Shown here: piece by piece, positions 4,826-25,886 of the stretch | How positions within the stretch are numbered: position 1 is the first letter of the stretch | Layout of the letters: each line of letters starts with the position of its first letter | From: Pseudomonas mohnii | GTDB taxonomy: Bacteria > Pseudomonadota > Gammaproteobacteria > Pseudomonadales > Pseudomonadaceae | Reading direction: 5' to 3' | NCBI RefSeq assembly: GCF_900105115.1 | Contig: NZ_FNRV01000001.1 | Span: 1-64,000 of the forward strand | Length of the DNA: 64,000 nt | Translations under genes and position numbers: made by a program | Notes under the pieces: generated by a model | Database searches by the model: none | What the model saw: only the letters and a program-made list of their open reading frames with translations | What the model was told of the DNA's origin: nothing

Positions 4826-6334
4826 TCAAGGGGCCTGTTGCAGGCAGCCCATTTTGCTCAAGGCCTGAAACAGCGCTTCGACGCGCGCTTGCGCCTGGTC
4901 CTCGGGGGTTCCGGCAAAGCCGATCAACAGGGCAGGGGGTAACACATGCTCAAGGCAGTAGTCGCTCAGGGCATAGGTATGAATGTTGTGCCGGGCCAGT
5001 TCCTTGGCGATCTCATCGTCATTCAGTTGGGGTGGCAGCCAGGCGATCAGATGCATGCCGGCTTCCACCGGCGTGATCCGGAAAAATCCGCCCAATTGCC
5101 GCTGCAATTGCTCGACCAGTGCCTGTTGCCGAGCCTGGTACAGCGCGCGCATGCGGCGAATATGTCCGATGAAGTGGCCTTCGCCCATGAAGTCAGCTGT
5201 CACCGCCTGCAGCAGGGTGGGCGGGCTGCGATCCATGACCGCGCGCAAGGTGCAGAAGGGTTCGACCAGGGCCTGCGGCAGGATCACGTAGCCCAGGCGC
5301 AGCGATGGGAAGAGCACCTTGCTGAAGGTGCCGACATAGATGACCCGGGCCCACTGATCCATGGCATAGAGCGCAGGCAACGGGCGGCCGCTGTAGCGAA
5401 ACTCACTGTCGCAGTCGTCTTCGATGATCCAGCTTTGATGGGCCGCGGCCCAGTCGATGAGTTCCTGGCGTCGCCCATAACTCATGGTGACCCCCAGCGG
5501 GTGTTGGCGCGACGGTGTGGTGAATACCAGGCGGGCATCAGGACAGCGGGCCAAGCCTTGCTGGACATCGATGCCCTGTTCATCGACAGGCAAGGGGACC
5601 AGCAAGCCACCCTGGGCCTGCAGTGCAATGCGCGCCGCGATATGCCCCGGATCTTCCATCCACACACTGTCCTGCGGGTTGAGCAGCAGCATGCCCAACA
5701 GGTTGAAGGCTTGCTGGGCGCCGGAAACGATCACCACCTGCTCGGCAGTGCAATCAATGCCACGGGCATCAAACACGTAGTCGGCAATCGCCTTGCGCAG
5801 GTCCGTTAAACCCTGCAGCTCGCCATAGCCAAGCATTGCCTTGGTGGGCTTATGCAGATGGCGGTTCATCAAACGTTTCCAGACCGCTTGTGGGAACGCG
5901 TCGTAGGCACTGTGGCTCGGCAGGAAGGAGGTCGGGGTCCCGGCGGCCCAGCCGGCATAGGACACCCCCTGGAAATGACGGCTGCGCATGGACAGCATCG
6001 AGCGGCTCAGATCGGACAGGCGCGGCGGTTGGGGTGGCGGCTGATCATCGGTCAGGCCTCGGTCTTCCCACTCATTGCCGACATAGGTGCCGGCGCCGGT
6101 CCGCGACGCCAGAAAGCCTTCGGCAATCAGTTGATCGAATGCATTGAGGATGGTGATCCGCGACAGGTCCAGCTCTTTGCTCAAGGTGCGGGTCGATGGC
6201 AGGCGCACGCCCCCTTGCAGTCGCCCGCTGAGAATCTGTTTGCGAATCTGCAAATACAGTTGGCGGTACAGGGGCATGGCGCTGGCACGGTCCAGCTCAA
6301 TGCCCGACAGCAGCAAACCGGCGGGGGATTTCAT
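4826..6334 (-). CDS. MocR/PdxR-type GntR transcriptional regulator with aminotransferase-like domain
   Basis: 502 residues from ATG at 6334; an in-frame GTG at 6385 would add 17 residues but the family normally begins just before the wHTH. Residues about 15-80 form a GntR winged helix (PLYRQLYLQIRKQILSG, then LPSTRTLSKELDLSRITI and GAGTYV). The rest is a fold-type I aminotransferase domain with a likely PLP lysine in TFSKVLFPSLRLGY (about residue 338) and the D-D-C-D-S-E-F-R-Y-S-G-R-P motif. Such proteins are PLP-sensing regulators, often of amine or amino-acid genes. It could control the isomerase/MFS pair downstream or the divergent quinone oxidoreductase operon; the second has its own AraC-type operator. 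Confidence 0.9.
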   Translation of the reverse strand: MKSPAGLLLSGIELDRASAMPLYRQLYLQIRKQILSGRLQGGVRLPSTRTLSKELDLSRITILNAFDQLIAEGFLASRTGAGTYVGNEWEDRGLTDDQPPPQPPRLSDLSRSMLSMRSRHFQGVSYAGWAAGTPTSFLPSHSAYDAFPQAVWKRLMNRHLHKPTKAMLGYGELQGLTDLRKAIADYVFDARGIDCTAEQVVIVSGAQQAFNLLGMLLLNPQDSVWMEDPGHIAARIALQAQGGLLVPLPVDEQGIDVQQGLARCPDARLVFTTPSRQHPLGVTMSYGRRQELIDWAAAHQSWIIEDDCDSEFRYSGRPLPALYAMDQWARVIYVGTFSKVLFPSLRLGYVILPQALVEPFCTLRAVMDRSPPTLLQAVTADFMGEGHFIGHIRRMRALYQARQQALVEQLQRQLGGFFRITPVEAGMHLIAWLPPQLNDDEIAKELARHNIHTYALSDYCLEHVLPPALLIGFAGTPEDQAQARVEALFQALSKMGCLQQAP

Positions 6335-6465
6335 GGGGCGCTCGTCTGGATGGGGTGTGATTTGACCTGAATCAGCGTCAGGCACTCGCGGCGCGCAAGG
6401 TTATCGAGCGGCAGTCGATAAGTCACCCGCAGCGGGCATCGTAAACGTTGGCACAACAGGCTGGT

Positions 6466-6503
6466 TGTCATGAAATGAAAAGCCGTTGTCGTCTGATGAG
6501 AAG
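6466..6503 (+). promoter_or_regulatory. Tandem direct-repeat operator before the oxidoreductase operon (AraC-type, predicted)
   Basis: Two 17-bp units, TGTCATGAAATGAAAAG (6466-6482) and TGTCGTCTGATGAGAAG (6487-6503), repeat with a 21-bp period, i.e. two helical turns. A very similar pair lies at 14317-14354 upstream of the second operon. A possible -10, TACAGT, begins at 6524, 21 bp after the second unit, and the counterpart TAATGT lies at the same offset at the other site. This geometry is typical of class II activation by AraC/XylS proteins. The AraC-type gene at 13134-14186 is the natural candidate activator. Confidence 0.65.
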
Positions 6504-6584
6504 CGATGACTGAGCCGCAGACCTACAGTCCAATCAGCGCAATTCGACGCACTCGCCAAAACGCAGATTGGAGAATAAGAAAAA

Positions 6585-7565
6585 ATGGCCAAAGCCGTTC
6601 GCTTTTACGAAACCGGTGGTCCCGAGGTGCTTCGTTACGAAGAGGTCGAAGTGGGGGACCCGGGCCCGGGCCAGGTTCGTCTTCGTCACGTGGCGGTCGG
6701 CCTGAACTATGCCGACACTTACTTTCGCAACGGCACTTACCCGATCCCGCTGCCGAACGGTATGGGGGTCGAAGCGTCCGGCGTGGTCCAGGCCGTTGGC
6801 GAAGGGGTGACCAATGTCCAAGTGGGTGATCGCGTCACCTACACCGGGTTTCTCAATACGCTGGGGGCCTACAGCACCGAGCGTCTGATCCCGGCGGCAC
6901 CGCTGATCAAACTCCCGGAAACCATCAGTTTCGAGACCGCCGCGGCCATGACCATGCGCGGCCTGACGTCGTCGTACCTGATGCGCCGCATCTACGATTT
7001 CAAGGTCGGCGACAGCATTCTGCTGCACGCTGCCGCCGGTGGGGTCGGCCTGATCGTTTCACAGTGGGCCAAGCTGCTGGGCCTGACCGTGATCGGCACC
7101 GTATCCACCGAGGTCAAGGGCGAAATCGCCCGGGCCCATGGCTGCGACCATGTCATCAATTACAGCCATGAAGATGTCGCCCAGCGCGTTCGCGAACTGA
7201 CGGACGGTGTCGGCGTCAACGTGGTATTCGACAGCGTCGGCAAGAACACTTTCATGGGTTCGCTGGATTCGCTCAAGCGCCGCGGCCTGATGGTCTGCGT
7301 CGGTACGGCTTCCGGCCCGATCCCGGCGTTCGACCCGGTGATGCTGGCGATGAAAGGCTCGCTGTTCCTGACTCGCCCGGCGCTGGCCGATTACATCGCC
7401 GACCCTGCGGAAAAAGCGGCCCTGGCCGGTGAATTGTTCGACCACGTCGGCAATGGCCGGATCAAGATCGAGATCAACCAGCACTACGCCTTGCAGGATG
7501 CCGTACAGGCCCACCGGGACCTGGAATCGCGCAAGACCACTGGCTCGTCGATTTTCGTCATTTAA
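6585..7565 (+). CDS. NADPH:quinone oxidoreductase (zinc-independent MDR family, QOR type)
   Basis: 326 residues, the usual QOR length. The N-terminal GroES-like domain (GGPEVLRYEEV, GLNYADTYFRNGTYP, GVEASGVV) lacks zinc ligands. The Rossmann domain carries the NADPH motif AAAGGVG at about residues 148-154 and ends with KTTGSSIFVI, typical of the family. It reduces quinones or conjugated enones/carbonyls with NADPH in the cytoplasm. It is the first gene of the operon, 82 bp after the tandem repeat operator, with AGAATAAG-type spacing before ATG. The next gene follows after 14 bp. In a catabolic context it may reduce an alpha,beta-unsaturated intermediate; that is inference. Confidence 0.9.
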   Translation: MAKAVRFYETGGPEVLRYEEVEVGDPGPGQVRLRHVAVGLNYADTYFRNGTYPIPLPNGMGVEASGVVQAVGEGVTNVQVGDRVTYTGFLNTLGAYSTERLIPAAPLIKLPETISFETAAAMTMRGLTSSYLMRRIYDFKVGDSILLHAAAGGVGLIVSQWAKLLGLTVIGTVSTEVKGEIARAHGCDHVINYSHEDVAQRVRELTDGVGVNVVFDSVGKNTFMGSLDSLKRRGLMVCVGTASGPIPAFDPVMLAMKGSLFLTRPALADYIADPAEKAALAGELFDHVGNGRIKIEINQHYALQDAVQAHRDLESRKTTGSSIFVI

Positions 7566-7579
7566 GGGAGTCCGCTGCC

Positions 7580-8428
7580 ATGAAAGTCGAACAATTGACC
7601 TGCAACATCGGTGCGGAACTGATCGGCGTCAATCTTGCCGACGCGATCCATGACGAGGGGCTTTTTGCCGAGATTCGGGCCCAGTTGCTCACCCATCGAG
7701 TGGTGTTCCTGCGCGACCAGAACATCAGTCGCGCCGAGCACGTGGCGTTCGCCCGGCGCTTTGGCGAGCTGGAAGATCACCCGGTGGCCGGCAGTGATCC
7801 GGATCACCCCGGCCTGGTGCAGATCTACAAAAAGCCGGACCAGCCGATGGACCGCTACGAAAACGCCTGGCACACCGACGCCACCTGGCGCGAAGCGCCG
7901 CCCATGGGTTGCGTGCTGCGCTGCGTGGAGTGCCCGCCGGTCGGCGGTGACACCATGTGGGCGAACATGGTCGAGGCCTACGCCAACCTGCCCGATGACG
8001 TGAAGGTGAAGATTGCCGACCTGCGCGCCCGCCACAGCATCGAAGCGAGCTTCGGCGCGGCCATGCCGATCGAAAAACGCCTGGCGCTGAAGGCCCTGTA
8101 TCCGGACGCCGAGCACCCGGTGGTGCGCACCCACCCGGAAACCGGGGAGAAGGTGCTGTTCGTCAACGCCTTCACCACCCATTTCAGCAACTACCACACC
8201 CCCGAGCGGGTGCGTTTCGGCCAGGACGCTAACCCTGGCGCGAGCGAGCTGCTGCGCTACCTGATCAGCCAGGCGTACATCCCCGAGTATCAAGTGCGCT
8301 GGCGCTGGAAGCCCAACAGCGTTGCCATCTGGGACAACCGCAGTACCCAGCATTACGCCGTCATGGATTACCCGCCGTGCCATCGCAAGATGGAGCGCGC
8401 CGGGATCATCGGCGACAAGACTTACTGA
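7580..8428 (+). CDS. TauD/TfdA family Fe(II)/2-oxoglutarate dioxygenase
   Basis: 282 residues, the normal TauD size. It has the N-terminal NIGAELIGVNL segment and VVFLRDQNIS, the metal-binding H-T-D in WHTDATW at about residues 97-99, and the distal histidine in WDNRSTQHYAVMDY with the following arginine (RKMERAGIIGD) that binds 2-oxoglutarate. Family members hydroxylate carbon next to a sulfonate, aryloxy, sulfate or amine group, often causing release of sulfite or another leaving group. The substrate is unknown, but a YeiH-type putative sulfate/sulfite exporter in the same operon makes a sulfur-containing substrate worth testing. GGGAG precedes the ATG with good spacing. Confidence 0.88.
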   Translation: MKVEQLTCNIGAELIGVNLADAIHDEGLFAEIRAQLLTHRVVFLRDQNISRAEHVAFARRFGELEDHPVAGSDPDHPGLVQIYKKPDQPMDRYENAWHTDATWREAPPMGCVLRCVECPPVGGDTMWANMVEAYANLPDDVKVKIADLRARHSIEASFGAAMPIEKRLALKALYPDAEHPVVRTHPETGEKVLFVNAFTTHFSNYHTPERVRFGQDANPGASELLRYLISQAYIPEYQVRWRWKPNSVAIWDNRSTQHYAVMDYPPCHRKMERAGIIGDKTY

Positions 8429-8515
8429 TCGACCCCTTCTGCATACGCACTCGTAAACACGTCTGCCCGGCACGATCCCGGGTGGACGGGACAATCATAA
8501 AAACAGGAGTAAACC

Positions 8516-9568
8516 ATGCAATTCTTCGACGATTCCCTGCACCCCGAAAACATGGAAAAGGTCGTCATCACCGTGGCCCCCTACGGCCCGGAATGGATGC
8601 CGGAAGACTTTCCTGAAGACATACCGCTGACCATGGACGAGCAGGTGCAGAAAGCGGTCGAGTGCTACGAGGCCGGTGCCACGGTCCTGCACCTGCACGT
8701 GCGCGAACTCGATGGCAAGGGGTCCAAGCGCCTGTCCAAGTTCAACGAGCTGATCGCCGGTGTGCGCGAAGCCGTGCCGGACATGATCATCCAGGTCGGC
8801 GGCTCGATTTCCTTCGCCCCTGAAAGCGATGGCGAAGCGGCCAAGTGGCTGTCCGACGACACTCGCCACATGCTGGCCGAGCTGACGCCAAAACCGGATC
8901 AGGTCACGGTGGCGATCAACACCACCCAGATGAACATCATGGAGCTGCTGTATCCGCAATACCTGGAAGGCACCTCCCTGGCCAATCCGTTGTTCCAGGC
9001 CGCCTACAGCGAAATGACCGTGCCGGCCGGTCCAGCCTGGGTGGCCGAACACCTCAAGCGCCTGATGGACAACGGCATCCAGCCACACTTCCAGTTGACC
9101 GGCATGCATGCCCTGGAAACTCTCGAGCGCCTGGTGCGCAGAGGCGTGTACATGGGCCCGCTGAACCTGACCTGGATCGGCATCGGTGGCGGTTTCGACG
9201 GTCCGAATCCGTTCAACTTCTTCAACTTCATCCACCGTGTTCCGAACGGCTGCACCCTGACCTCCGAATCGCTGCTCAAGAACGTGCTGCCGTTCAACAC
9301 CATGTCGATGGCCATGGGCATGCACCCGCGTGTGGGCAACGAAGACACTATCATTGATCACAAGGGCGAACGTTTCGGCTCGGTCGCACAGATCGAGCAG
9401 ACCGTGCGCATCGCCCATGAACTGGGTCGCGAGATCGCCACCGGCAAAGAAGCCCGTGAGATCTATCGCATCGGTGTGCAATACCAGAGCATCGAAGAAA
9501 CCCTGTTGGCCAACGGCATGGCCCCCAACCGCAAGGCCGGGCAAAAAGGTGTGCCGCAGCGCGGCTGA
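8516..9568 (+). CDS. Beta-keto acid cleavage enzyme (BKACE, DUF849)
   Basis: 350 residues. BKACE proteins are zinc TIM barrels that convert a beta-keto acid plus acetyl-CoA into acetoacetate and a new acyl-CoA; the founding member is Kce of lysine fermentation. Visible family features are KVVITVAPYGPEW near the N terminus, the metal segment TVLHLHVRELDGK (about residues 59-71), IIQVGGSISF, and a later zinc/active-site region with IQPHFQLTGMHAL and WIGIGGG. The average member is about 270-310 residues, so this is a long one. A strong AGGAG ribosome site lies before ATG. Its presence implies that a beta-keto acid arises in the pathway encoded by this operon. Confidence 0.87.
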   Translation: MQFFDDSLHPENMEKVVITVAPYGPEWMPEDFPEDIPLTMDEQVQKAVECYEAGATVLHLHVRELDGKGSKRLSKFNELIAGVREAVPDMIIQVGGSISFAPESDGEAAKWLSDDTRHMLAELTPKPDQVTVAINTTQMNIMELLYPQYLEGTSLANPLFQAAYSEMTVPAGPAWVAEHLKRLMDNGIQPHFQLTGMHALETLERLVRRGVYMGPLNLTWIGIGGGFDGPNPFNFFNFIHRVPNGCTLTSESLLKNVLPFNTMSMAMGMHPRVGNEDTIIDHKGERFGSVAQIEQTVRIAHELGREIATGKEAREIYRIGVQYQSIEETLLANGMAPNRKAGQKGVPQRG

Positions 9569-9572
9569 CCGG

Positions 9573-9609
9573 CAGTGGCGGCGAGAGGTCGTTGGCCTCT
9601 CGCTCACTG
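9573..9609 (+). other. Intergenic stem-loop after the BKACE gene
   Basis: GCGAGAGG (9581-9588) pairs perfectly with CCTCTCGC (9596-9603), extended by CAGTG and CACTG outer arms. No T-run follows, so it is not a classical intrinsic terminator; it may stabilise the upstream mRNA or partly attenuate transcription into the MFS gene. Confidence 0.5.
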
Positions 9610-9659
9610 CATGCAACACGCTTGATAACAACAATAAAACGAAGCTTTGAGGAGGCTGC

Positions 9660-10982
9660 ATGGCCTTTCATCCAATCGCTGCGGACGATGACGACTGCAG
9701 TGGCGTCGGCGTTGCGCGCAAATATGCCTGGATCGTCTTTGCACTGACGTTCGGCCTGTTGATTTCCGACTATATGTCGCGTCAGGTGCTGAACGCGGTG
9801 TTCCCGATGCTCAAGGGCGAGTGGTCCTTGAGCGATGGTCAGCTCGGCTTGCTCAGTGGCGTTGTCGCCCTGATGGTCGGCTTGCTGACGTTTCCCCTGT
9901 CGTTGCTGGCGGACCGCTTCGGCCGGGTCAAAAGCCTCGCCCTGATGGCGCTGTTGTGGAGTGTGGCCACTCTGGGTTGTGCCCTGGCCCAGGATTACCA
10001 GCAGATGTTCATTGCCCGGTTCATGGTCGGGGTCGGTGAAGCGGCTTACGGCAGTGTCGGTATCGCGGTGGTGATTTCCGTGTTTCCCAAACACATGCGG
10101 GCCACCCTGGCCAGCGCCTTCATGGCGGGTGGCATGTTCGGTTCCGTGTTGGGCATGGCGTTGGGCGGAGCCATCGCGGCCAAACTGGGCTGGCGCTGGT
10201 CGTTTGCCGGGATGGCGCTGTTTGGCCTGCTGTTGGCGGTGCTGTACCCGATCATCGTCAAGGAAGCCCGCATCGCACCGAGGCGCATGGCCAACATGGC
10301 TGCTGCCAAGGTCAAGCAACCGTTGCGTACGCTGTTTTCCAGCCGTTCGGTGATCGCGACCTACGTCGGCAGCGGCTTGCAGCTGTTCGTCGGCGGCACC
10401 GTGATCGTGTGGATGCCCAGTTACCTGAACCGCTACTACGAAATGGGCACGGACAAGGCCGGAGGCATGGCCGCCATCATCGTGCTGTGCAGCGGCGCCG
10501 GGATGATTCTGTGCGGCATGCTCAGTGATCGCCTGTGCCGGCAATCGCCGGAGCGCAAGGTGGCCCTGGCCATTGCCTATTGCCTGGGCAGTTGCCTGCT
10601 GTTGTCGGCGGCGTTCGCCCTGCCGGCGGGGCCCGGGCAACTGGCGCTGATCTGCCTGGGCATGTTGATTGCCGCTGGCACCACCGGTCCCGCCGGGGCG
10701 ATGGTGGCCAACCTGACCCCGTATTCATTGCATGGCACAGCGTTCGCCACCCTGACCCTGGCCAACAACATGCTCGGCCTGGCGCCGGGGCCGTTCATCA
10801 CCGGCAGGGTGTCCGACCTGATCGGCCTGCACGCGGCCTTCCAGTGGGTGCCTCTGGTCAGCCTCGGGGCAGCCGCGGTGTTCTTTTATGCCAAGTGTCA
10901 TTACCACAGAGATATTGCCCGCCTTCAGGGTCAGCACGTGCCTGATCCTGTCAATGCAGCCGGGTTAGAGGTGAAGTTGTGA
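9660..10982 (+). CDS. MFS transporter
   Basis: 440 residues with about 12 membrane helices. The helix 2-3 loop reads L-A-D-R-F-G-R-V-K-S and there is a second copy, GMLSDRLCRQSPERK, after helix 8, both normal MFS signatures. The acidic run DDDD lies in the short cytoplasmic N terminus before the first helix. Position in the operon between BKACE and a DsbA-like gene, and a 4-bp overlap with the next start, indicate that it carries the pathway substrate or a product. It looks closest to sialate/aromatic acid or spinster-type carriers but I cannot name the substrate. The preceding GAGGAGGCT is a strong ribosome site. Confidence 0.87.
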   Translation: MAFHPIAADDDDCSGVGVARKYAWIVFALTFGLLISDYMSRQVLNAVFPMLKGEWSLSDGQLGLLSGVVALMVGLLTFPLSLLADRFGRVKSLALMALLWSVATLGCALAQDYQQMFIARFMVGVGEAAYGSVGIAVVISVFPKHMRATLASAFMAGGMFGSVLGMALGGAIAAKLGWRWSFAGMALFGLLLAVLYPIIVKEARIAPRRMANMAAAKVKQPLRTLFSSRSVIATYVGSGLQLFVGGTVIVWMPSYLNRYYEMGTDKAGGMAAIIVLCSGAGMILCGMLSDRLCRQSPERKVALAIAYCLGSCLLLSAAFALPAGPGQLALICLGMLIAAGTTGPAGAMVANLTPYSLHGTAFATLTLANNMLGLAPGPFITGRVSDLIGLHAAFQWVPLVSLGAAAVFFYAKCHYHRDIARLQGQHVPDPVNAAGLEVKL

Positions 10983-11641
10983 GTCGTCGCTTATCCATTG
11001 ATGTGTTTTTCGATTTCATCTGCCCCTGGTGCCTGATCGGCAAACGCCAATTGGAGCATGCGCAAGTGCAGTTTCGCAGTCGCTATCCGGACGTGCAGAT
11101 CACCACGGTGTGGCATGGTGTGCAGTTGCTGCCTCAGTTGCCCGTGGAAGGTGAGCCCTTCGCCGATTTCTATCGCAAGCGTCTGGGCAATGCCGAGGCC
11201 ATGACCATGCGTCAGGCCCAGGTACAGCAGGCTGCCTCGGCGGTTGGGCTGGCCATCGACCTCAGCCGCATTGCGACGATGCCCAACACCGCTGATGCCC
11301 ATCGCTTGTTCGAGCGTGCGAGCGTGCTGGGCAATGCCACCCAGCGTGAAATGTTGCTCGAACGAATGTTCGCCGCTTATTTCCGCAAAGGCGAAAACCT
11401 GGGTTGCCGAGAGACCTTGCTCGCCATAGCCCGCTCTTGCGGCGTCGATGCGGACAGTGTGCTCGATTGCCTGAAGGGCGATGCGACGCCCTTTGCCGGA
11501 TCCCCCGGTGCGACCAGTGGCGTGCCGAGCTTTCAGTTTGACCGGCGCATGACCGTGATCGGGGCACAACCCGCGCAGGCGTTGCTCGGGGCCATGAGCG
11601 AAGCGCTCAAGGAAAGTGAGCGCGAGCGGCAACCGGCATGA
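10979..11641 (+). CDS. DsbA family oxidoreductase (FrnE-like thioredoxin fold)
   Basis: 220 residues. The active site C-P-W-C is in FDFICPWCLIGKRQLE at about residues 14-21. There is no signal peptide, so it is probably cytoplasmic, like FrnE and 2-hydroxychromene-2-carboxylate isomerase relatives. The C-terminal part has the helical insertion and GVPSFQFDRRMTVIGAQPA, which contains the cis-proline position (G-V-P) normal for this fold. The GTG start overlaps the stop of the MFS gene (GTGA), so it is translationally coupled. It may act as a disulfide oxidoreductase or a glutathione-dependent isomerase in the pathway; no specific role is known. Confidence 0.87.
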   Translation: MSRRLSIDVFFDFICPWCLIGKRQLEHAQVQFRSRYPDVQITTVWHGVQLLPQLPVEGEPFADFYRKRLGNAEAMTMRQAQVQQAASAVGLAIDLSRIATMPNTADAHRLFERASVLGNATQREMLLERMFAAYFRKGENLGCRETLLAIARSCGVDADSVLDCLKGDATPFAGSPGATSGVPSFQFDRRMTVIGAQPAQALLGAMSEALKESERERQPA

Positions 11642-11961
11642 CCAGACGTATCCCCGTACCGGCCGGCAAACACCCGCAGGCCGGTGGTCGCGCGCTGTTC
11701 GAGTTCGAGGACAAAAGCCTGGCGCTGTTCAACGTCGACGGGCAGTTGTTCGCCATCGACGACAGCTGCCCGCACCAAGGCGCGTCGCTCTGTGGCGGGC
11801 GCCTGGAGGGCCGGGTGATCCAGTGCCGCGCCCACGGCCTGCGCTTCGACCTGCTCAGCGGCTACCTGCTCAATTCCACCCAGGTCAAGGTCACCCACTA
11901 CCCGGTCGAGATCATCGACGACCAGGCGTTCATCATCATTTCCGAGGAGTCCGCGCCATGA
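11638..11961 (+). CDS. Rieske (2Fe-2S) ferredoxin
   Basis: 107 residues, a stand-alone Rieske ferredoxin. The cluster ligands are visible as C44-P-H46 (SCPHQGASLCGG) and C63-x2-H66 (CRAHGLRFD). It starts at ATG overlapping the stop of the DsbA-like gene and its own stop overlaps the start of the next gene, so all three are coupled. Such ferredoxins pass electrons to Rieske oxygenases or other redox enzymes. No Rieske oxygenase large subunit or dedicated reductase is in the operon; the partner may be elsewhere or it may serve the DsbA-like or quinone reductase proteins. Confidence 0.9.
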   Translation: MTRRIPVPAGKHPQAGGRALFEFEDKSLALFNVDGQLFAIDDSCPHQGASLCGGRLEGRVIQCRAHGLRFDLLSGYLLNSTQVKVTHYPVEIIDDQAFIIISEESAP

Positions 11962-12968
11962 GCGCCATTGCTCTTACCCGTATCCATAGCCGCACCCGCG
12001 AATTGGCACCGGGGTTCGTTGTCAGTCTGATCGTGGCCGCCGCCGCGTCGTTTTTGTCCGAGCATTACGGTGCCCCGGTGATGCTGTTCGCGTTGCTGCT
12101 GGGCATGGCGCTCAACTTTCTGGCGGGTGACGGCGCCTGCAAGGCCGGCATCGAGTTCACCGCTCGCAGCGTGTTGCGCATTGGCGTCGCGCTGTTGGGC
12201 ATGCGCATCACCCTGGAACAAATGGCCGCGCTGGGCTGGAAACCGGTGGCCCTGGTGGTGATTCTGGTGGTCGTGACCATTAGTGTCTCGGTGATCGCGG
12301 CCAAGGCCATGGGGTTCCAGCGCCTGTTCGGCATGCTCACCGGCGGGGCCACGGCGATCTGCGGCGCATCGGCAGCGCTGGCCCTGGCGGCGGCGTTGCC
12401 CAACCATCCGCAGAAAGAGCGGGCTACCTTGTTCACGGTCATCGGGGTTTCGGCGCTGTCGACCCTGGCGATGATCGTCTATCCGATGATCGCCAATTGG
12501 CTGGCCTTGTCGCCGCAAGTGGCCGGTGTGTTTCTCGGTGCCACCATCCATGACGTCGCCCAGGTCGTCGGGGCCGGTTACAGCATGTCGACCGAGACCG
12601 GCGACACCGCCACAGTGGTCAAGCTGATGCGCGTCGCCATGCTGCTACCGGTGATCGTCAGCGCCGCGATGATCACCCGCATGCAAGGCGCCGATCCCAC
12701 CGGCAAACGGCCGCCGCTACTGCCGTGGTTCGCGGTCGGTTTTCTGATACTGGCCTGCATCAACAGCACCGGCTGGGTGGTCCCGGCGGTGCAGGGCGCG
12801 GTCAATGAACTGTCGCGCTGGTGCCTGGTGGTGTCCATCAGCGCGCTGGGCATGAAAACCCAGCTCAAGGAACTGGCGGCCGTCGGTATCAAGCCGATCC
12901 TGCTGATGGTGGGGGAGACCGTGTTCCTGGTGGTTCTTGTGCTGCTGTTGCTGCACTGGGGGATGTAA
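11958..12968 (+). CDS. YeiH family putative sulfate exporter (UPF0324)
   Basis: 336 residues from ATG at 11958, which overlaps the Rieske stop by four bases; longer frames upstream are not translated here because they run through the Rieske gene. About ten membrane helices. Family marks are LGMALNFLAGD, GIEFTARSVLRIGVALLGMRI, LTGGATAICGASAALA and FLGATIHDVAQVVGAGY, followed by a C-terminal GMKTQLKEL segment. YeiH proteins are poorly characterised; some are annotated as sulfate or sulfite exporters, and E. coli yeiH is a membrane protein of unknown substrate. It is the last gene of the operon, with a terminator about 100 bp downstream. A sulfur oxyanion product from the dioxygenase step is possible but unproven. 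Confidence 0.88.
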   Translation: MSAIALTRIHSRTRELAPGFVVSLIVAAAASFLSEHYGAPVMLFALLLGMALNFLAGDGACKAGIEFTARSVLRIGVALLGMRITLEQMAALGWKPVALVVILVVVTISVSVIAAKAMGFQRLFGMLTGGATAICGASAALALAAALPNHPQKERATLFTVIGVSALSTLAMIVYPMIANWLALSPQVAGVFLGATIHDVAQVVGAGYSMSTETGDTATVVKLMRVAMLLPVIVSAAMITRMQGADPTGKRPPLLPWFAVGFLILACINSTGWVVPAVQGAVNELSRWCLVVSISALGMKTQLKELAAVGIKPILLMVGETVFLVVLVLLLLHWGM

Positions 12969-13066
12969 ACCCGGCTGCTCGCGACCGCATTCAACAAGCG
13001 GCGCCACATTGTGTTCACTCCGACGCAGTGCGGCACTCGACCGGCGTCATAAGCACCGGTTCCTTT

Positions 13067-13098
13067 ACGGCGACTGTACCAGCAGTCGTCGTTTTTTT
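13067..13098 (+). terminator. Intrinsic terminator after the YeiH operon
   Basis: CGACTG (13071-13076) and CAGTCG (13083-13088) pair around TACCAG and are followed by seven T. It lies about 100 bp after the YeiH stop and just before the end of the convergent AraC gene. Confidence 0.7.
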
Positions 13099-13133
13099 AT
13101 TTGGAGGCTGCCTACAGGTAGATCTGCGCGTGT

Positions 13134-14186
13134 TCAGGGTTTCTCTGGATCGGAAAGGACGCTGCTGTCTGCCGCCTTGGCACTGCCAGGCTTATGAGTG
13201 GTGCGCCAAACGGCTGGCGGCATGTCGAACTGGCTGATGAACCAGCGCGTGAACGAGCTCGCCATGGAGTAGCCGAGCATGTCGGCGATTCGGCTCAGCG
13301 AGTAATTGGGGTTGTCCAGATAGCGCAGCACCAGGTCGCGACGCACATCGTTGATCAGGTCGTTGAACGCGCAGCCATCCTCTTTGAGGCGACGTTGCAG
13401 GGTCCGTACGTTCATGCCCTGGGTCTGGGCAATCTGCTCGATCGTGGCGCGCCCCATCGGCAGCAGCAGGTAAATGGCCTTGCGCACCTCAAACAGCATC
13501 GACGGCCCTTCGTGGCTCTGTAGCGAATCCAGGTAGCTTTGGGCGTAACGGGCCATGGCCGGGTCGGCATGGGGATTGGTCATGTCGAGGCTGGCGTCTG
13601 GGCAGACAATGCCATTGAACTCACTGCCGAACTCCAGGTTGCAACCAAACAGGCGGCGATGCAGGTGCAGGTTTTCCGGGGCCTGGTGGGTGAAGTTGAC
13701 GCTATACGGATGCCAATGCGTTCCCAGCAGGGCCGCGCACAGACGGAACATCACGCCGATGGCCAGCTCATTGGCCTGCCGGCAGGACATCGGAGACTCG
13801 GTGACCACCTCTTCACGGATGATCACCATCTTGCCCGCTTCCTCGACGAAGATCGCCAACGAGTCGTTCATGAGATGGCGGTAATGCACCAGCACCTGCA
13901 ACGCATCACGCAGTGTCCGCTGATGCGTGAGCAGCAGGCTGACCACGCCAAAGTCCGAGAGTTGACGCGACTCGGCCATGCTCAGGCCGAAGGTCTGACA
14001 ACCGCTGGCGGTCGCCGAAAGCTCCAGCAGACGCACCGCGGAATCGATTGGAATGCGTTGTTCGGGGGCCAGCAGGCGGGCCTTGCTCAGGCCGACCTGC
14101 GCCAGCACATCATGCGGATTGAACCCCAGGTAATGGGCTACATCCAGGTAGTTGGTCAAGACAGCGGCGCGAACGAGCTTGGTCAT
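13134..14186 (-). CDS. AraC family transcriptional regulator (OruR-like, arabinose-binding type N domain)
   Basis: 350 residues. The N-terminal about 200 residues match the PF12625-type sensing domain seen in OruR and related Pseudomonas regulators (YLGFNPHDVLAQVGL, VRLLELSATASG, FGLSMAESRQLSDFG, VVSLLLTHQRTLRDAL). The C-terminal 100 residues are the double HTH: ATIEQIAQTQGMNVRTLQRRL and SLSRIADMLGYSMASSFTRWFISQFDMPPAVWR. It sits between two operons that share the same tandem repeat upstream of their promoters, and is convergent to the first and divergent from the second. The likely role is activation of both by a pathway compound. A related half site lies 59 bp before its own start, hinting at autoregulation. 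Confidence 0.93.
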   Translation of the reverse strand: MTKLVRAAVLTNYLDVAHYLGFNPHDVLAQVGLSKARLLAPEQRIPIDSAVRLLELSATASGCQTFGLSMAESRQLSDFGVVSLLLTHQRTLRDALQVLVHYRHLMNDSLAIFVEEAGKMVIIREEVVTESPMSCRQANELAIGVMFRLCAALLGTHWHPYSVNFTHQAPENLHLHRRLFGCNLEFGSEFNGIVCPDASLDMTNPHADPAMARYAQSYLDSLQSHEGPSMLFEVRKAIYLLLPMGRATIEQIAQTQGMNVRTLQRRLKEDGCAFNDLINDVRRDLVLRYLDNPNYSLSRIADMLGYSMASSFTRWFISQFDMPPAVWRTTHKPGSAKAADSSVLSDPEKP

Positions 14187-14244
14187 GAAGAGGTCATCCC
14201 TGGAGCGTCTCGATGGAGTTGAGCGGGGCGGACTATATCCAGCA

Positions 14245-14261
14245 CATCATGAAATGAAAAG
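14245..14261 (+). promoter_or_regulatory. Single half site near the AraC start
   Basis: CATCATGAAATGAAAAG matches the unit at 6466-6482 at 15 of 17 positions. No second unit is seen 21 bp away. It lies 59 bp upstream of the AraC gene and 56 bp before the paired site at 14317, and could serve autoregulation or looping. Confidence 0.4.
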
Positions 14262-14316
14262 TTTTTGAAGCCATGTTTTGCGCGTCCACACGACCACCAA
14301 TCAGGCGCTCCTGTCC

Positions 14317-14354
14317 TGTCATCAAAAGAAAAGTCGGTGTCGTCAAATGAAAAG
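14317..14354 (+). promoter_or_regulatory. Tandem direct-repeat operator before the hydrolase/DUF1302 operon (AraC-type, predicted)
   Basis: Units TGTCATCAAAAGAAAAG (14317-14333) and TGTCGTCAAATGAAAAG (14338-14354) have a 21-bp period and match the pair at 6466-6503 closely, in the same order and orientation. A -10-like TAATGT begins at 14375, the same offset as at the first promoter. The distance to the start codon is 89 bp, against 81 bp there. The intergenic region 14187-14443 otherwise holds no gene. Confidence 0.65.
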
Positions 14355-14443
14355 CGTAGCGGGTGGGCGCTCTTTAATGTCGGTACTACAAAAAGATTCT
14401 GGCGAAACAGCCAGGCGAGCTACCGAGAAGGTGAGGTGTTCAA

Positions 14444-15010
14444 GTGAACAAACTGCAAACCGCCGCTACCGTTCTGATTGTACCGGGTCTGCGCGACCAC
14501 GTTGCCGAGCATTGGCAAACGCTGCTTGAGGCCCGGTTGAACAACGTACGCAGCGTCCCGCCGCTTGAAACCGACAAGCTCGACTGCGCTGCCCGGGTCC
14601 GGGCGATCCAGCATGAACTGGAACAAATCGACGGCCCGGTGATTCTCGTCGCCCATAGCGCCGGCGTGCTGATGGTCGCCCACTGGGCCGCCCGCCACAG
14701 CGGCTCGATCAAGGGCGCTCTGTTGGCCGCGCCGCCGGACCTCAATGCCACCTGGCCGGCAAACTACCCGTCCCCTGAAACCCTCAAAGCCAACGGCTGG
14801 GCCCCTCTGCCTGCCGGTGCGCTGCCGTTTCGCAGTCTCGTGGCGGGCAGCACCAACGATCACCTGGCCAGTCTCGAGGCCGTCACCCGCATGGCCCGCG
14901 ACTGGGGCAGCGAACTGGTCAACCTCGGCGAGGTCGGCCATCTCAATCCTGCTTCGGGCTTCGGCCACTGGCCGCAAGCCGAAGCCCTGATTCTGGAACT
15001 GGATCGCTAA
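14444..15010 (+). CDS. Alpha/beta hydrolase of the RBBP9/YdeN family
   Basis: 188 residues from a GTG start with GAAGGTGAGG upstream. The fold begins TVLIVPGLRDHVAEHWQ; the nucleophile elbow is AHSAGVL (serine near residue 68) and the catalytic histidine is in GEVGHLNPASGFGHWP near the C terminus, a pattern diagnostic for RBBP9/YdeN serine hydrolases. These small cytoplasmic hydrolases have few known substrates. It is the first gene after the second tandem-repeat operator and precedes the outer-membrane DUF1302 gene by about 130 bp. It might cleave an ester or thioester of the pathway substrate. Confidence 0.88.
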   Translation: MNKLQTAATVLIVPGLRDHVAEHWQTLLEARLNNVRSVPPLETDKLDCAARVRAIQHELEQIDGPVILVAHSAGVLMVAHWAARHSGSIKGALLAAPPDLNATWPANYPSPETLKANGWAPLPAGALPFRSLVAGSTNDHLASLEAVTRMARDWGSELVNLGEVGHLNPASGFGHWPQAEALILELDR

Positions 15011-15141: not shown

Positions 15142-17157
15142 ATGCATAACAATAAGAGTCACAGCCACACACTTCCTTCGCGACACAGTCTGTTGGCCCT
15201 GGCCATTCTGGCGGCGTCCATGCCGGTCGCTCACGCCGTCGAAGTGGATACCGGCAACCCTGACTGGTCGGTACGTTTCGATAACACCGTGAAGTACAAC
15301 TACGGCGTGCGCACCGAAGGCGCCGACAAGCGCATGTTGGCGACCCCCAACAATAACGACGGCGATTACAACTTTCGCAAGGCCGGGACCAACATCACCA
15401 ACCGCGTCGATCTGTTGACCGAAATGGATGTGGTCTACCAGCAAAGCATGGGCTTTCGGGTCAGTGCCGCGAGCTGGTACGACAAGGCGTATGAAAACAC
15501 CGGTTCCAATTCCAACCCGTTCGTCAACGGCAATGGCGGCACTTCCGGCCTGGTCGCCAATGACCCGCGCCTGGCGGCGGTTACCAACGACAACGTCGGC
15601 TTCGGCAGCCCGCACCTGAGCAACTATGCCCAGCGTTATTACAACGGACCTTCCGGGGAAATCCTCGACGCCTTCGTGTTCTACAGCACCGAAGTGGGCG
15701 ATGAGTCGATGTTCAGCGTCAAGGCCGGGCAACACAACGTGTTCTGGGGTGAAACCATCCTCAACCCGGTGCATTCGATCAGCTACGGCCAGTCTGGCCT
15801 GGACCTAGCCAAGCTGGCCGCATCGCCGGGGACCGAGGCCAAGGAACTGTTCGTTCCTCGCAATCAGATTTCGATGACCTTCACCCTCAATCCCGAATTG
15901 ACGGTGGGCGCCCAGTATTTCCTCGATTGGGATGCGGCGCGCCTGCCCGAGGCCGGGACCTACTATGGCGGTTCCGATCTGGTGGGCTTCGGCGCGCAGT
16001 CGTTCCTGCTGGGCAATACCAACTCCGTGACGCCGGGCAGCCCGCTCGGTTGTGGCATCGCGCCTTGCAACGGCCTGACCAACGTGCGCCGCGGCGATGA
16101 CCTGACACCGCGCAATTCAGGCGATTGGGGCGTCATGGCCAAATGGTCGCCCGCCTGGCTGGACGGTACGCTGGGCTTCTACTACCGCCAGACGTCGGAC
16201 ATCTTGCCGCAAGCCTGGCTCGACGCCCGAGGCGTGAGCTCGGTCAACCCGAACGGTACGCGGCCAGCGGGTCAGGTGCCGGCGGTGGTCAATACCCTGA
16301 ACTCCCTGAGCACCGCCACCTATCAACTGGCCTATTCCGACAAGATCGACATCTTCGGCTTGAGCCTGTCCAAGGACATCGGCGGCATCAGCGTCGGCAG
16401 TGACCTGAACATCCGGCACAACATGCCCCTGGCCAGTATTCCGGCGATCGTCAGCACCAGCAGCCCGCTCGGACTGGGGCAGGGTCTTGGCCTGTTGCCA
16501 GCGCGTTCGGCGGCCAGCGGCGTGATCTATGACACCCCGCACGATGGCGACAGCATGAGCGCCACCGGTGACACGCTGCACTGGACACTCAACGGTCTGA
16601 TGAGCCTGTCGAAAACGCCGGTATACGATTCGGCGACCCTGCTCGCCGAGCTGTATTACAGCAACCTGCTCAAGCTCGATAGCAAGAACGAGGCGCTCTA
16701 CAAAGGCAAGAGCACCTATCGCGGTATCGATGCGCCTACCCGCGACAACTGGGGCATCGCCGTCAACTTCACCCCGACCTGGTATCAGGTGTTTCCGGGC
16801 GTCGACATGAGCCTGCCGATGTCGGTCAACGTCGGCCTCGCTGGCGTGTCCCCGGTCTCCGGCGGCGGCGCCAAGGACACCGGCAACTACGCGTTCGGCG
16901 TCGGTGCCGCGGTGTACAACAAGTACTTCGTCGACCTCAAGTACGTGGACTCCTTCGGCAAGACCGACAAGTGCAATGTCAGCGGCAACAGCACCGGTGC
17001 TGCCAATGCCGGAAGCGGCGACGGCTCCACGCCGAACGCCTTCAGCGGTAACGAAAACTATGCGTGCTACGCCGGTGGCTATTCAGCCTTCTCGGGTGGC
17101 GGTGCGACCACCGAAGACCGTGGTGCCCTGTACCTGACGCTGAAAACCACCTTTTGA
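15142..17157 (+). CDS. DUF1302 family protein (probable outer-membrane beta-barrel)
   Basis: 671 residues. A signal peptide (about residues 1-33, LLALAILAASMPVAHA-V) is followed by a long beta-rich sequence with alternating aromatic/polar strands, DWSVRFDNTVKYNYGVR at the front and a C-terminal segment ending LYLTLKTTF, i.e. a terminal phenylalanine as in outer-membrane barrels. DUF1302 proteins regularly travel with DUF1329, a YCF48-like protein and an MMPL/RND protein in clusters for hydrophobic substrates such as steroids, terpenoids and esters. The likely task is passage of such a substrate across or onto the outer membrane. GGCGGAG precedes the ATG. Confidence 0.88.
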   Translation: MHNNKSHSHTLPSRHSLLALAILAASMPVAHAVEVDTGNPDWSVRFDNTVKYNYGVRTEGADKRMLATPNNNDGDYNFRKAGTNITNRVDLLTEMDVVYQQSMGFRVSAASWYDKAYENTGSNSNPFVNGNGGTSGLVANDPRLAAVTNDNVGFGSPHLSNYAQRYYNGPSGEILDAFVFYSTEVGDESMFSVKAGQHNVFWGETILNPVHSISYGQSGLDLAKLAASPGTEAKELFVPRNQISMTFTLNPELTVGAQYFLDWDAARLPEAGTYYGGSDLVGFGAQSFLLGNTNSVTPGSPLGCGIAPCNGLTNVRRGDDLTPRNSGDWGVMAKWSPAWLDGTLGFYYRQTSDILPQAWLDARGVSSVNPNGTRPAGQVPAVVNTLNSLSTATYQLAYSDKIDIFGLSLSKDIGGISVGSDLNIRHNMPLASIPAIVSTSSPLGLGQGLGLLPARSAASGVIYDTPHDGDSMSATGDTLHWTLNGLMSLSKTPVYDSATLLAELYYSNLLKLDSKNEALYKGKSTYRGIDAPTRDNWGIAVNFTPTWYQVFPGVDMSLPMSVNVGLAGVSPVSGGGAKDTGNYAFGVGAAVYNKYFVDLKYVDSFGKTDKCNVSGNSTGAANAGSGDGSTPNAFSGNENYACYAGGYSAFSGGGATTEDRGALYLTLKTTF

Positions 17158-17196: not shown

Positions 17197-18555
17197 ATGA
17201 AATTCGTGCAAACCTTGCTGGCCGCTTCCCTGGTCATGGCCATTGGCGCCCAGGCGCAGGCCGCCGTTTCGACTCAGGAGGCCGCCAAACTGGGCAGCAG
17301 CCTGACCCTGGTGGGGGCCGAAAAGGCCGCCAGCGCCGATGGTGCCATTCCCGCCTATGCCGGCGGGCTGACCACGGCCCCGGCCAGCTTCAAGGCAGGC
17401 GACAGCATGCGCCCGGACCCCTTCGCCAGTGAAAAGCCGGTATTGGTCATCGACGGTAAAAACGTTGATCAGTACAAAGGCATGCTCACTGCCACCACCG
17501 TGGAGCTGGCCAAGCGCTTCCCGACCTTCCGTGTCGATGTCTACCCGACCCACCGCACCGTTGCATTGCCCCAGGCGGTGCTGGACAACAGCGTGAAGAA
17601 CGCCAGCGGCGCCAAGTCCCTTGAAGGCGGCCTGGCCATCGACAACGTCTTGCCGGGCGTGCCGTTCCCGATCCCGCAATCGGGCAGCGAGGCGATGTGG
17701 AATTTCCTGCTGCGTTATCAGGGCGTCAACATCAACTCCAAGTACGACTCCTGGAACGTCGACTCGGCCGGTGTACCGAGCCTGGCGACCACCGGGCAGG
17801 CGTTCATCACTTACCCGATCTACGAAAACCTGGCGCAGACCATCAGCAGTGCCGACGTGTACTACCAGATGAAGCTGTATTACACCGGGCCGGCGCGCCG
17901 CGCCGGTGAGTCGATCATGCTCAAGGACGCCGCCAACCCGCTGCAGCAGCCGCGCCGCGCATGGCAGTACCTGCCGGGTCAGCGTCGCGTCAAGCTGGCA
18001 CCGAACCTGGCCTACGACACGCCGAACCCGGGTACCGCCGGTGCCGGTACTTACGACGACGTGTTCGTCTTCAACGGTGCGCTGGATCGCTACGACTGGA
18101 AGCTGGTCGGCAAGCAGGAAATGATCGTGCCGTACAACACCTACAAGCTGACCTACGCCCAGGACCCGAAAAGCCTGACCACGCCGAACCACCTTGCCCC
18201 CGATTTCGTGCGCTGGGAGAAACACCGCGTGTGGGTGGTCGAGGGCAACCTCAAGGCCGGCGCACGCCATGTCTACCAGAAGCGTCGCTTCTACCTGGAT
18301 GAAGACAGCTGGGCCGCTCTGGCCTCCGATCAATACGACGCACGGGGTCAGCTCTACCGTGGTTCCTTCGCGTTCCTCAGCCAGAGCTATGACAAGCAAG
18401 TGCCGGACTCCACGCCTTTCATGATCTACGACCTGGTCGGTGGTTCCTACAACATCAACGGTGTGGTCGGGCCTTACGGCGGTATCCGCTACATCGACTC
18501 GCTGTCCAAGGCGCAGTGGTCGCCGGAGTCCCTGGCAGGCGCCGGCATTCGCTAA
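17197..18555 (+). CDS. DUF1329 family protein (periplasmic, LolB-like superfamily)
   Basis: 452 residues with signal peptide MKFVQTLLAASLVMAIGAQAQA-A. The mature start is conserved in the family: EAAKLGSSLTLVGAEKAASADGAIPAYAGGL. Later AWQYLPGQRRVKLAPNLAYDTPNP, DDVFVFNGALDRYDWKLVGKQEM and VWVVEGNLKAGARHVYQKRRFYLDEDSW are typical DUF1329 segments. The family is close to lipoprotein-sorting LolA/LolB-type proteins and may ferry hydrophobic molecules through the periplasm. The gene follows DUF1302 by about 40 bp with GCAGGAG before ATG. Its fixed pairing with DUF1302 indicates one transport unit. Confidence 0.9.
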   Translation: MKFVQTLLAASLVMAIGAQAQAAVSTQEAAKLGSSLTLVGAEKAASADGAIPAYAGGLTTAPASFKAGDSMRPDPFASEKPVLVIDGKNVDQYKGMLTATTVELAKRFPTFRVDVYPTHRTVALPQAVLDNSVKNASGAKSLEGGLAIDNVLPGVPFPIPQSGSEAMWNFLLRYQGVNINSKYDSWNVDSAGVPSLATTGQAFITYPIYENLAQTISSADVYYQMKLYYTGPARRAGESIMLKDAANPLQQPRRAWQYLPGQRRVKLAPNLAYDTPNPGTAGAGTYDDVFVFNGALDRYDWKLVGKQEMIVPYNTYKLTYAQDPKSLTTPNHLAPDFVRWEKHRVWVVEGNLKAGARHVYQKRRFYLDEDSWAALASDQYDARGQLYRGSFAFLSQSYDKQVPDSTPFMIYDLVGGSYNINGVVGPYGGIRYIDSLSKAQWSPESLAGAGIR

Positions 18556-18620: not shown

Positions 18621-19694
18621 ATGTGTTCGTACAAGAAGTACCTGCAGTGGGCGCTGGGCGCCACACTGGCTGTGCTCCAGGGCTTCACCCAGGCGGCCGG
18701 TTACGTCGACGTGCTGGACCTGCCAGCCCGGCCCAGCGCCCTGGCCGCGCACAGCCCGTTGCTCGGCGCGGCCCGCGCGGGTGAGCGACTGGTCGCGGTC
18801 GGGCAGCGAGGCCACATTCTCTACTCCGATGACAGCGGCAACGCCTGGCAGCAGGCCGCCGTGCCGGTCAGCGCCGACCTCAACGCCGTGAGCTTCCCTT
18901 CGCCCACCCAGGGCTGGGCGGTCGGTAACGACGGCGTGATCCTGCACAGCAGCGATGCCGGCGCGACCTGGAACAAGCAACTGGACGGCCGCCAGATCGG
19001 TGCCTTGCTGGTCAAGCATTACAGTGCGCTGGCCAGTGCCGAACCGGCCAACGAACAATGGGCGCAGCTGGCCGCGGATGGTCAGCGGCTGGTCGAGGAG
19101 GGCGCCGACAAGCCGCTGCTCGACGTCTGGTTCGCCAATGAAAAAGTCGGCTATGTGGTGGGCGTATTCAATCTGATTCTGCGTACCGAGGATGGCGGTC
19201 AGCACTGGACACCGTTTCAGGACCGCACCGATAACCCGCAAAGTCTGCACCTCAACGCCATCGCCTCCACGGGGGATGGGCTGTTCATCGTTGGCGAACA
19301 GGGGCTGCTGCTCAAATGGGATGAACCCAAGCAGCGTTTCGTGGCGCTGGATTCGCCCTACCAGGGCAGCTTTTTCGGTGTGATCGGCAAGCCCGGCGAA
19401 GTGCTGGTGTATGGCCTGCGCGGGCACGTGTTCCGCAGCGTCGACGGTGGCGCCAGCTGGACGGCGCTCAGTACCGGCCTGCAAGTCAGCCTCACGGCGG
19501 CCACTCTGGATGCCGAAGGGCACTACCGACTGTTGAGTCAGGCAGGACAGTTATTGGTTAGCACCGACGATGGCGCGCGCCTCCAGCCGCAGCCCCGAAA
19601 AGACATCTCGCCGGCCGCCGGCGCGATCACAGCTCCCAACGGCGGGCTGGTATTGGTCGGCAGCCGTGGCGTGCGCGCACTCGACGTCAAATAA
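18621..19694 (+). CDS. YCF48-like/BNR-repeat protein, exported
   Basis: 357 residues. A signal peptide (ALGATLAVLQGFTQAA) is followed by repeats of the BNR/YCF48 beta-propeller type: GQRGHILYSDDSGNAWQQ, GNDGVILHSSDAGATWNK, ILRTEDGGQHWTPF, GEQGLLLKWDEP and GLRGHVFRSVDGGASWTAL, each with the D-x-G-x-x-W signature. YCF48 and HCF136 help assemble photosystem II in phototrophs; in heterotrophs the related proteins sit next to MMPL transporters and probably act as periplasmic partners of them. The next gene here encodes exactly such a transporter, 31 bp downstream. Confidence 0.88.
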   Translation: MCSYKKYLQWALGATLAVLQGFTQAAGYVDVLDLPARPSALAAHSPLLGAARAGERLVAVGQRGHILYSDDSGNAWQQAAVPVSADLNAVSFPSPTQGWAVGNDGVILHSSDAGATWNKQLDGRQIGALLVKHYSALASAEPANEQWAQLAADGQRLVEEGADKPLLDVWFANEKVGYVVGVFNLILRTEDGGQHWTPFQDRTDNPQSLHLNAIASTGDGLFIVGEQGLLLKWDEPKQRFVALDSPYQGSFFGVIGKPGEVLVYGLRGHVFRSVDGGASWTALSTGLQVSLTAATLDAEGHYRLLSQAGQLLVSTDDGARLQPQPRKDISPAAGAITAPNGGLVLVGSRGVRALDVK

Positions 19695-24057: not shown

Positions 24058-24108
24058 CCCCGTGAACCGGAGATGATCTCCAATCAACCGCATCAGGAAG
24101 ACTTCACC

Positions 24109-25875: not shown

Positions 25876-25886
25876 AGGGCGGTGGG

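Follow-up and report, generated by a model that had tools for sequence, protein, structure and literature searches.

One AraC-family protein as the probable common activator of two operons behind a shared tandem operator in Pseudomonas mohnii

The first 64,000 nucleotides of contig 1 of Pseudomonas mohnii (assembly GCF_900105115.1, contig NZ_FNRV01000001.1; hereafter the window) carry two sites that share one 38-bp tandem layout, each in front of one of two operons that flank a gene for an AraC-family regulator (13134-14186, minus strand). Comparison with relatives argues strongly for one regulon, in which the AraC protein would bind both sites and act as the common activator of both flanking operons, and the two gene clusters very probably make up a single co-regulated catabolic pathway. 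Operator 1 (6466-6503, plus strand; units 6466-6482 and 6487-6503), which we define from its sequence and from relatives, precedes operon 1 with its leading qor gene, and operator 2 (14317-14354, plus strand; units 14317-14333 and 14338-14354) precedes operon 2, which is led by a serine-hydrolase gene. At both places, two 17-bp units are spaced by 4 bp, giving a 21-bp period; the units read TGTCATGAAATGAAAAG / TGTCGTCTGATGAGAAG at operator 1 (12 of 17 bases identical) and TGTCATCAAAAGAAAAG / TGTCGTCAAATGAAAAG at operator 2 (15 of 17). In register, the two operators have 31 of 38 bases in common, while their flanks agree at only 7 of 40 positions upstream and 5 of 20 downstream, which bears out the initial annotation of these paired units as similar sites in dissimilar surroundings. 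A duplication of the promoter region was considered and rejected because of these differing flanks (7/40 in the 40 bases upstream).

The pair is distinctive in the genome. Within the window, the next-best match to the 38-mer of operator 1 on either strand reaches 23 of 38 bases. A scan of the whole genome (6,592,588 bases on two contigs, the window being the start of contig 1), a check already proposed in the initial annotation, found the tandem pattern with up to three mismatches at 6466-6503 and 14317-14354 only, with no match in the reversed control. A looser pattern added one weak place, which scores -24.7 on a position matrix whose training sites score 53-65; with these two patterns, of which the stricter could miss more degenerate sites such as those before sorA in relatives (see below), no credible third full operator was found in this genome.

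Both operators recur in related bacteria together with the genes they precede. Using the AraC protein, we fetched 80 loci (the best 80 of 91 relatives, all titled Pseudomonas), and counted an operator where a matrix score above 20 occurred within about 420 bases upstream of the gene, with qor recognised at 60% identity or more. Such an operator precedes qor in 61/62 loci with a recognised qor and the serine-hydrolase gene in 69/69 loci in which that gene was recognised. Loci where the sequence ends early or the gene is absent, for example around L069, L072, L073 and L076, were left out of these counts (18 for qor, 11 for the hydrolase). All 56 loci with both genes hold both operators, so that an absence of the repeats beside orthologous clusters, which had been named as grounds for abandoning the proposal, was not what we observed. 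A simple consensus count recovers the same sites as the matrix. In register, the units hold 1.79-1.89 bits of information per column, compared to 0.09-0.53 bits in the 100 bases upstream and 1.47-1.64 bits from +21 to +32, and the tandem sites are an island of conservation. The sole qor locus lacking the operator is L070, where qor adjoins a different AraC gene (36% identical) and is preceded, at L070:7999-8036 on the minus strand, by a different repeat, CGCCCCAAAATGTAAAG / CGCCCCAGAATATCAAA, again with a 21-bp period and with 13 of 17 bases identical, regulator and operator having apparently been exchanged together.

Across 3.25 million bases (both strands of the 80 relative loci and the window), 142 of the positions with TG at either unit start score above zero on the matrix. 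Those that score above zero but below the training range (11 among the matches listed) are weaker operators or the half-site before araC described below, and lie in the same clusters. On this ground, we rejected a chance repeat.

The position of the sites relative to the predicted promoters fits an activator. Counting from the end of unit 2, a candidate -10 hexamer of operon 1, TACAGT (6524-6529, plus strand; 4/6), starts at +21, and the candidate of operon 2, TTTAAT (14373-14378, plus strand; 5/6), starts at +19. The initial annotation had placed a -10-like hexamer at +21 of both sites; this stands for site 1, whereas at site 2 the hexamer at +21, TAATGT, matches only 3/6 and TTTAAT is the better candidate. 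The candidate -10 regions are kept in relative loci as CCTACAGTCCA (operon 1, 61 distinct sequences) and TCTTTAATGTC (operon 2, 68 distinct sequences). With a -10 at +19 to +21 and a 17-bp spacer, the last 3-5 bases of unit 2 would fall within the -35. In the class II layout of AraC-type activators, the activator site overlaps the -35. The direct-repeat half-sites of about 15-17 bp, the period of about 21 bp and the adjoining or overlapping predicted -35 found here match a class II AraC/XylS operator, to which the regulator is predicted to bind. The AraC protein would occupy a pair of 17-bp half-sites arranged head to tail with a period of 21 bp. As the half-site nearer the promoter stops where the -35 should begin, RNA polymerase would be recruited by class II activation once the N-terminal domain has bound an inducer, presumably the substrate or an intermediate.

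The regulator gene and the tandem co-occur in the genus. We screened 298 Pseudomonas genomes, the window's own included, for the tandem (at most one mismatch to the pattern; reversed control 0 in each) and for the AraC gene (E <= 1e-120), and found them in 67 and 62 genomes, respectively. The tandem is present in 62/62 AraC-positive genomes versus 5/236 AraC-negative ones, and 57 of the 62 hold two tandems or more. The corresponding Fisher p of 1e-58 overstates the evidence, as it ignores shared ancestry and the location of gene and sites in a single cluster. Among the five AraC-negative genomes with a tandem, G041 (matrix 16.9) and G230 (-6.2) look like chance. In G227 (L130:9930-9967) and G108 (L131:9851-9888), where the AraC gene was not found, both the usual -10 region and operon 1 are missing beside the operator, and that of G108 adjoins the gntR gene that also flanks the operator in the window; both are apparent deletion scars. 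The fifth, G134 (L129), retains qor and part of tauD.

New here is the reach of the operator, in relatives, to unlinked genes (DUF1329, beta-keto acid cleavage enzyme (BKACE), ligase, qor-tauD) and to sorA. We took as extra operators those sites that lie away from the canonical pair among the matches listed, presuming nearby pairs to be canonical without checking each and leaving out a distant second site in G270 (~80 kb). Such sites stand before a lone DUF1329 gene in at least 10 places (L134, L175-L182, L184) and also before a BKACE paralog (L138), an acyl-CoA ligase gene (L139), a qor-tauD-acad group (L140), and sorA (L133, L135, L137, L174 with a partial gene, and L185). Every genome with an extra operator among these matches is AraC-positive. 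At L185 (G128), two operators in series (1426-1463 and 1519-1556) precede sorA. The operators L132:7019-7056 and L183:3019-3056 make up a further class, with TGATAAG in unit 1, ATAAACT downstream and, in an alignment of 116 bases spanning the site, 78% identity to each other.

The sorA sites allowed a comparison outside the cluster. SorA-like genes (E <= 1e-100) occur in 26 of the 298 genomes, and an operator precedes sorA in 19/21 of those that are AraC-positive (scores 19.8-51.3) versus 0/5 of those that are AraC-negative (G038, G079, G135, G271 and G275; best locus score -14.2 or lower), with a Fisher p of 0.0003. After exclusion of diverged SorA proteins (<=65% identity), the counts were 19/20 and 0/3 (Fisher p 0.002). 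The gene pair of L135, the sole one scanned against NCBIfam, scores above the cut-offs for SorA (658.2 vs 600) and SorB (111 vs 93), and its SorA matches the solved chain 2blf, a sulfite:cytochrome c oxidoreductase. That the operator is also found at functionally related genes outside the cluster, and before sorA in none but AraC-positive genomes, supports the regulon more strongly than co-occurrence within a cluster can. The proposal of the initial annotation that the AraC gene joins both operons in one regulon is hence well supported by comparison (56/56, 62/62 and sorA), with binding of the protein to the sites as the predicted link.

What the regulon may do is suggested by the same sites. 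The placement of sorA under the operator in relatives, along with operon 1's genes for TauD-like and YeiH-like proteins, suggests a release of sulfite from a sulfonate, and we lean slightly towards a substrate of this kind. The TauD-like enzyme would free sulfite, which could exit through the YeiH-like protein or, in relatives, be oxidised by SorAB under the same operator. Likewise, an Ame-like transport system with a ligase and an acyl-CoA dehydrogenase in operon 2 suggests a hydrophobic substrate, and an organosulfonate with a hydrophobic moiety is the probable candidate. BKACE enzymes make acetoacetate. A 3-oxoacid CoA-transferase pair (scoAB) that lies in L071 between araC and the yeiH-like gene, with scores above the NCBIfam cut-offs, fits acetoacetate from a BKACE. 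Quite tentatively, and with a limited chance of being right in full, we sketch a hitherto undescribed aerobic route for an amphiphilic organosulfonate (e.g., a sulfonolipid or an acyl-linked sulfonate): the Ame-like system would handle the hydrophobic substrate, the ligase and acyl-CoA dehydrogenase would act on the acyl part, the TauD-like enzyme would free sulfite, the BKACE would split the remaining beta-keto acid, and one AraC protein would co-ordinate uptake, carbon use and sulfite disposal (through the YeiH-like exporter, and SorAB in relatives).

A number of observations weigh against this picture of a single, sulfite-linked regulon. The 52 distinct sites used to train the matrix came from the same loci that it later scored, so that the counts of 61/62, 69/69 and 56/56 lean on likeness to the consensus, and the pattern used for the genus was relaxed after sites of relatives had been seen. 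At most seven candidates were scored per genome, whereby any of the 236 genomes called AraC-negative can be a miss. The genomes share ancestry, and araC lies in one cluster with the two sites, so that joint inheritance could explain their co-occurrence. The operators at L132 and L183 precede no recognised pathway gene, and G015 and G232 are AraC-positive with a sorA that lacks the operator. Near AraC homologues that are 72-85% identical to ours (L069, L072, L073, L076 and L136), this operator is lacking, so the site does not always accompany a closely related regulator, and nothing sulfonate-specific was found among the genes of the cluster at L073. On the chemical side, the TauD-like protein belongs to the Pfam TauD family and falls below the NCBIfam cut-off for taurine dioxygenase (NF007104; 244.4 vs 313), and the YeiH-like protein matches PF03601 and falls below the cut-off of TIGR00698 (154.2 vs 232.6). 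SorA was not found in the window's genome, where there was only a 30% partial match, so that the sulfite argument rests on the relatives.

The alternative that survives best keeps the single regulon and dispenses with the sulfonate: the dioxygenase would oxidise some other acid, and the YeiH-like protein and SorAB would handle sulfite from another source or act otherwise. This is a serious contender, with a chance that we put somewhat short of even. TauD-fold enzymes take varied substrates, and PlaO1, ScoE and phenoxypropionate dioxygenases are among the structure matches; AmeABCD serves monoterpenes, which are free of sulfur (PMC6394551); and SorA was not found in the window's genome, and 5 of the 26 sorA genomes are without this AraC gene. 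A regulator dedicated to a sulfur-free substrate would, however, have little reason to hold sorA in 19/21 genomes and a YeiH-like gene in the operon besides. Far less probable is the possibility that another AraC-type paralog, or a second regulator, binds the shared site and that the neighbouring AraC gene merely accompanies the cluster. Several genomes do contain extra AraC homologues (56-85% identical), the helix-turn-helix segments of some, where the DNA-reading residues are presumed, differ little from that of the window's protein, and the location of gene and sites in one cluster means that joint inheritance explains part of their co-occurrence. Against this, there is a single match at E <= 1e-120 in the window's genome and likewise in 54 of the 62 positive genomes, the unlinked sites before sorA, DUF1329, BKACE and ligase genes were found in AraC-positive genomes, and the operator differs at L070, where the neighbour is a different AraC gene. 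A conservation of the repeats for reasons other than operator function (an RNA element or a recent promoter duplication), for which we found no supporting point, RNA structure being untested, can be dismissed as very improbable, because conservation covers the 38 bp and the -10 region ~20 bases downstream and does not extend to the upstream flanks, other genes in relatives show the same layout, and the 40 bases upstream of the two sites, sharing 7/40, speak against a simple duplication.

The preferred reading, a common activation of both operons by the AraC protein, is compatible with the domains of that protein. It carries an N-terminal Arabinose_bd domain (PF12625, 159.2 bits vs 27.6) and an HTH_18 domain (PF12833, 58 bits vs 33.6), which place it in the AraC/XylS family and which, with the co-occurrence of gene and operator, make it the presumed binder of both sites. 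Its nearest NCBIfam model is QhpR (NF049968), below the cut-off (193.5 vs 250 bits). A single half-site that was absent from the initial annotation, CATCATGAAATGAAAAG (14245-14261, plus strand; 13.1 bits), lies 59 nt from the araC start and is a candidate autoregulatory site. Among the 77 relative loci whose AraC match begins at residue 3 or earlier, 17 have a half-site of at least 10 bits at 59-85 nt from the araC ATG, and the other 60 are without one. In L026, L055, L071 and L082, the half-site lies 60-85 nt from araC while operator 2 is ~190 bp to 1.9 kb away from it (72 bp in the window). As the distance to araC stays within this narrow range and that to operator 2 varies, the half-site belongs to the araC promoter rather than to operator 2. 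It may tune the expression of araC, and autoregulation through it is our guess. At L073, the cluster of the AraC homologue, perhaps a sister regulon, includes two TauD-family genes and genes for a YeiH-like protein, an MFS protein, a cupin, a ligase and a hydrolase.

Operon 1, all on the plus strand, would supply a 2-oxoglutarate dioxygenase, a beta-keto acid cleavage enzyme, a quinone reductase, a ferredoxin and two transporters. It starts with qor (6585-7565), encoding an NADPH:quinone reductase-like protein of the zinc-binding dehydrogenase family (PF00107, PF08240; NF008024 above cut-off), followed by a tauD-like gene for an Fe(II)/2-oxoglutarate dioxygenase (7580-8428; PF02668; closest solved chain 5vn6); a search for its close homologues (E <= 1e-105) in a sample of 369 genomes from the class recovered just the window's own copy and so added no wider gene context. 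The BKACE gene (DUF849; 8516-9568) follows, with a PF05853 score of 206.5 bits vs a gathering score of 24.8 and with 2y7d and others as relatives in the PDB, and then genes for an MFS transporter (9660-10982; PF07690) and a DsbA-fold thioredoxin-like protein (10979-11641; PF01323). The Rieske gene that the initial annotation had listed in this operon is real (11638-11961, stop included; a 107-aa [2Fe-2S] ferredoxin-like protein identified by its translation and PF00355, scanned as 11638-11955), but it is read in another frame than the longest open reading frame there (11616-12968). The last gene (11958-12968) encodes the YeiH-like membrane protein of the putative sulfate/sulfite exporter family (PF03601, scanned on the longer frame 11616-12968); it, the tauD-like gene, and the MFS and DsbA-like genes had been missing from that annotation. 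Divergent from operon 1 lies a MocR-type regulator gene (4826-6385, minus strand; GntR and aminotransferase domains; above the NCBIfam PdxR cut-off); this gntR gene adjoins operon 1 in several relatives and persists in L131, where operon 1 is lost. Open reading frames between araC and the yeiH-like gene are listed for six loci, and a Pfam scan of two of those in L020 and three in L071 gave a Tle1-like protein and DUF2931 in the former, and MFS, PhaC and one without a match in the latter.

Operon 2, likewise on the plus strand, would provide an AmeABCD-like envelope transport system together with an acyl-CoA ligase and an acyl-CoA dehydrogenase. Behind the serine-hydrolase gene (14444-15010; PF06821), it encodes a DUF1302 protein (15142-17157; PF06980; AmeA-like, outer membrane), a DUF1329 protein (17197-18555; PF07044; AmeB-like, periplasmic), a YCF48/BNR-type protein (18621-19694; PF14870; AmeC-like), and an MMPL/RND transporter (19726-22215; PF03176; HAE3-like and AmeD-like), for which the HAE3 model TIGR00921 is the best NCBIfam match yet scores below its cut-off (141.5 vs 351.9). 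The acyl-CoA dehydrogenase (22279-24057; PF12806, PF00441) and acyl-CoA ligase (24073-25746; PF00501; NF004837 above cut-off) genes come next. The succession of DUF1302, DUF1329, YCF48-type and HAE3-like RND genes in one operon has the AmeABCD-type order, as judged by gene families rather than by Ame sequences. A 134-aa open reading frame directly after the ligase gene (25821-26225, plus strand) is a possible further member of operon 2.

Overall, the regulator and its mechanism are of an ordinary, well-known type, and the regulon is very probably real. Its interest lies in bringing BKACE, DUF1302, DUF1329, YCF48-type and HAE3-like RND families, whose roles are unclear, under a single regulator with a single operator, for which a pattern search can be run on any Pseudomonas genome. 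The first hint at the chemistry comes from the operator before sorA and points to sulfite, and the larger sulfite-linked regulon of relatives makes the pathway testable, as the substrate can be sought by a simple reporter screen. We found no description of this regulon in the titles and abstract openings searched, where subscription papers are mostly not covered, so that it may already have been published.

Among known systems, operon 2 comes closest to AmeABCD of Castellaniella defragrans, in which AmeA is the DUF1302 protein and the order of DUF1302, DUF1329, COG4447/YCF48-type and HAE3-like RND genes equals that of operon 2 (PMC6394551). That set sits in a monoterpene island, whereas operon 2 adds an acyl-CoA dehydrogenase and a ligase, and its regulon is linked to sulfite in relatives. 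The SorAB sulfite dehydrogenase is represented by the two L135 genes that the operator precedes and was not found in the window's genome. In the slf locus of plasmid pP62BP1 from Psychrobacter, control of an alkyl sulfate pathway with an acyl-CoA ligase among its enzymes is predicted for an AraC-family gene, SlfR, and the direct repeats there were likened to XylS sites by the authors (PMC3346939); the repeat sequence differs from that in the window, and the slf enzymes named there (a sulfatase, two dehydrogenases and a ligase) act on sulfate esters, not sulfonates. MtlR at PmtlE of Pseudomonas fluorescens offers another tandem, where the binding site, 37 bp or longer, lies upstream of the -35 and holds two similar 15-bp blocks at -72 to -58 and -50 to -36 (PMC4514859); it differs in responding to mannitol-type inducers and, by those coordinates, in its period of 22 rather than 21. 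A further parallel for the operator itself is XylS at Pm. The review PMC5481539 describes two homologous direct repeats of 15 bp each, comparable to the tandem units here, and class II XylS/AraC activators with a C-terminal double helix-turn-helix and an N-terminal effector domain, as in our protein, and the title of a paper cited there speaks of overlapping activator and polymerase sites, resembling the predicted -35 overlap in the window. Compared to XylS as described in that text, the half-site here is 17 bp long and has a different sequence, with the consensus TGTCATCAAATGAAAAG, and two operons flank the regulator gene.

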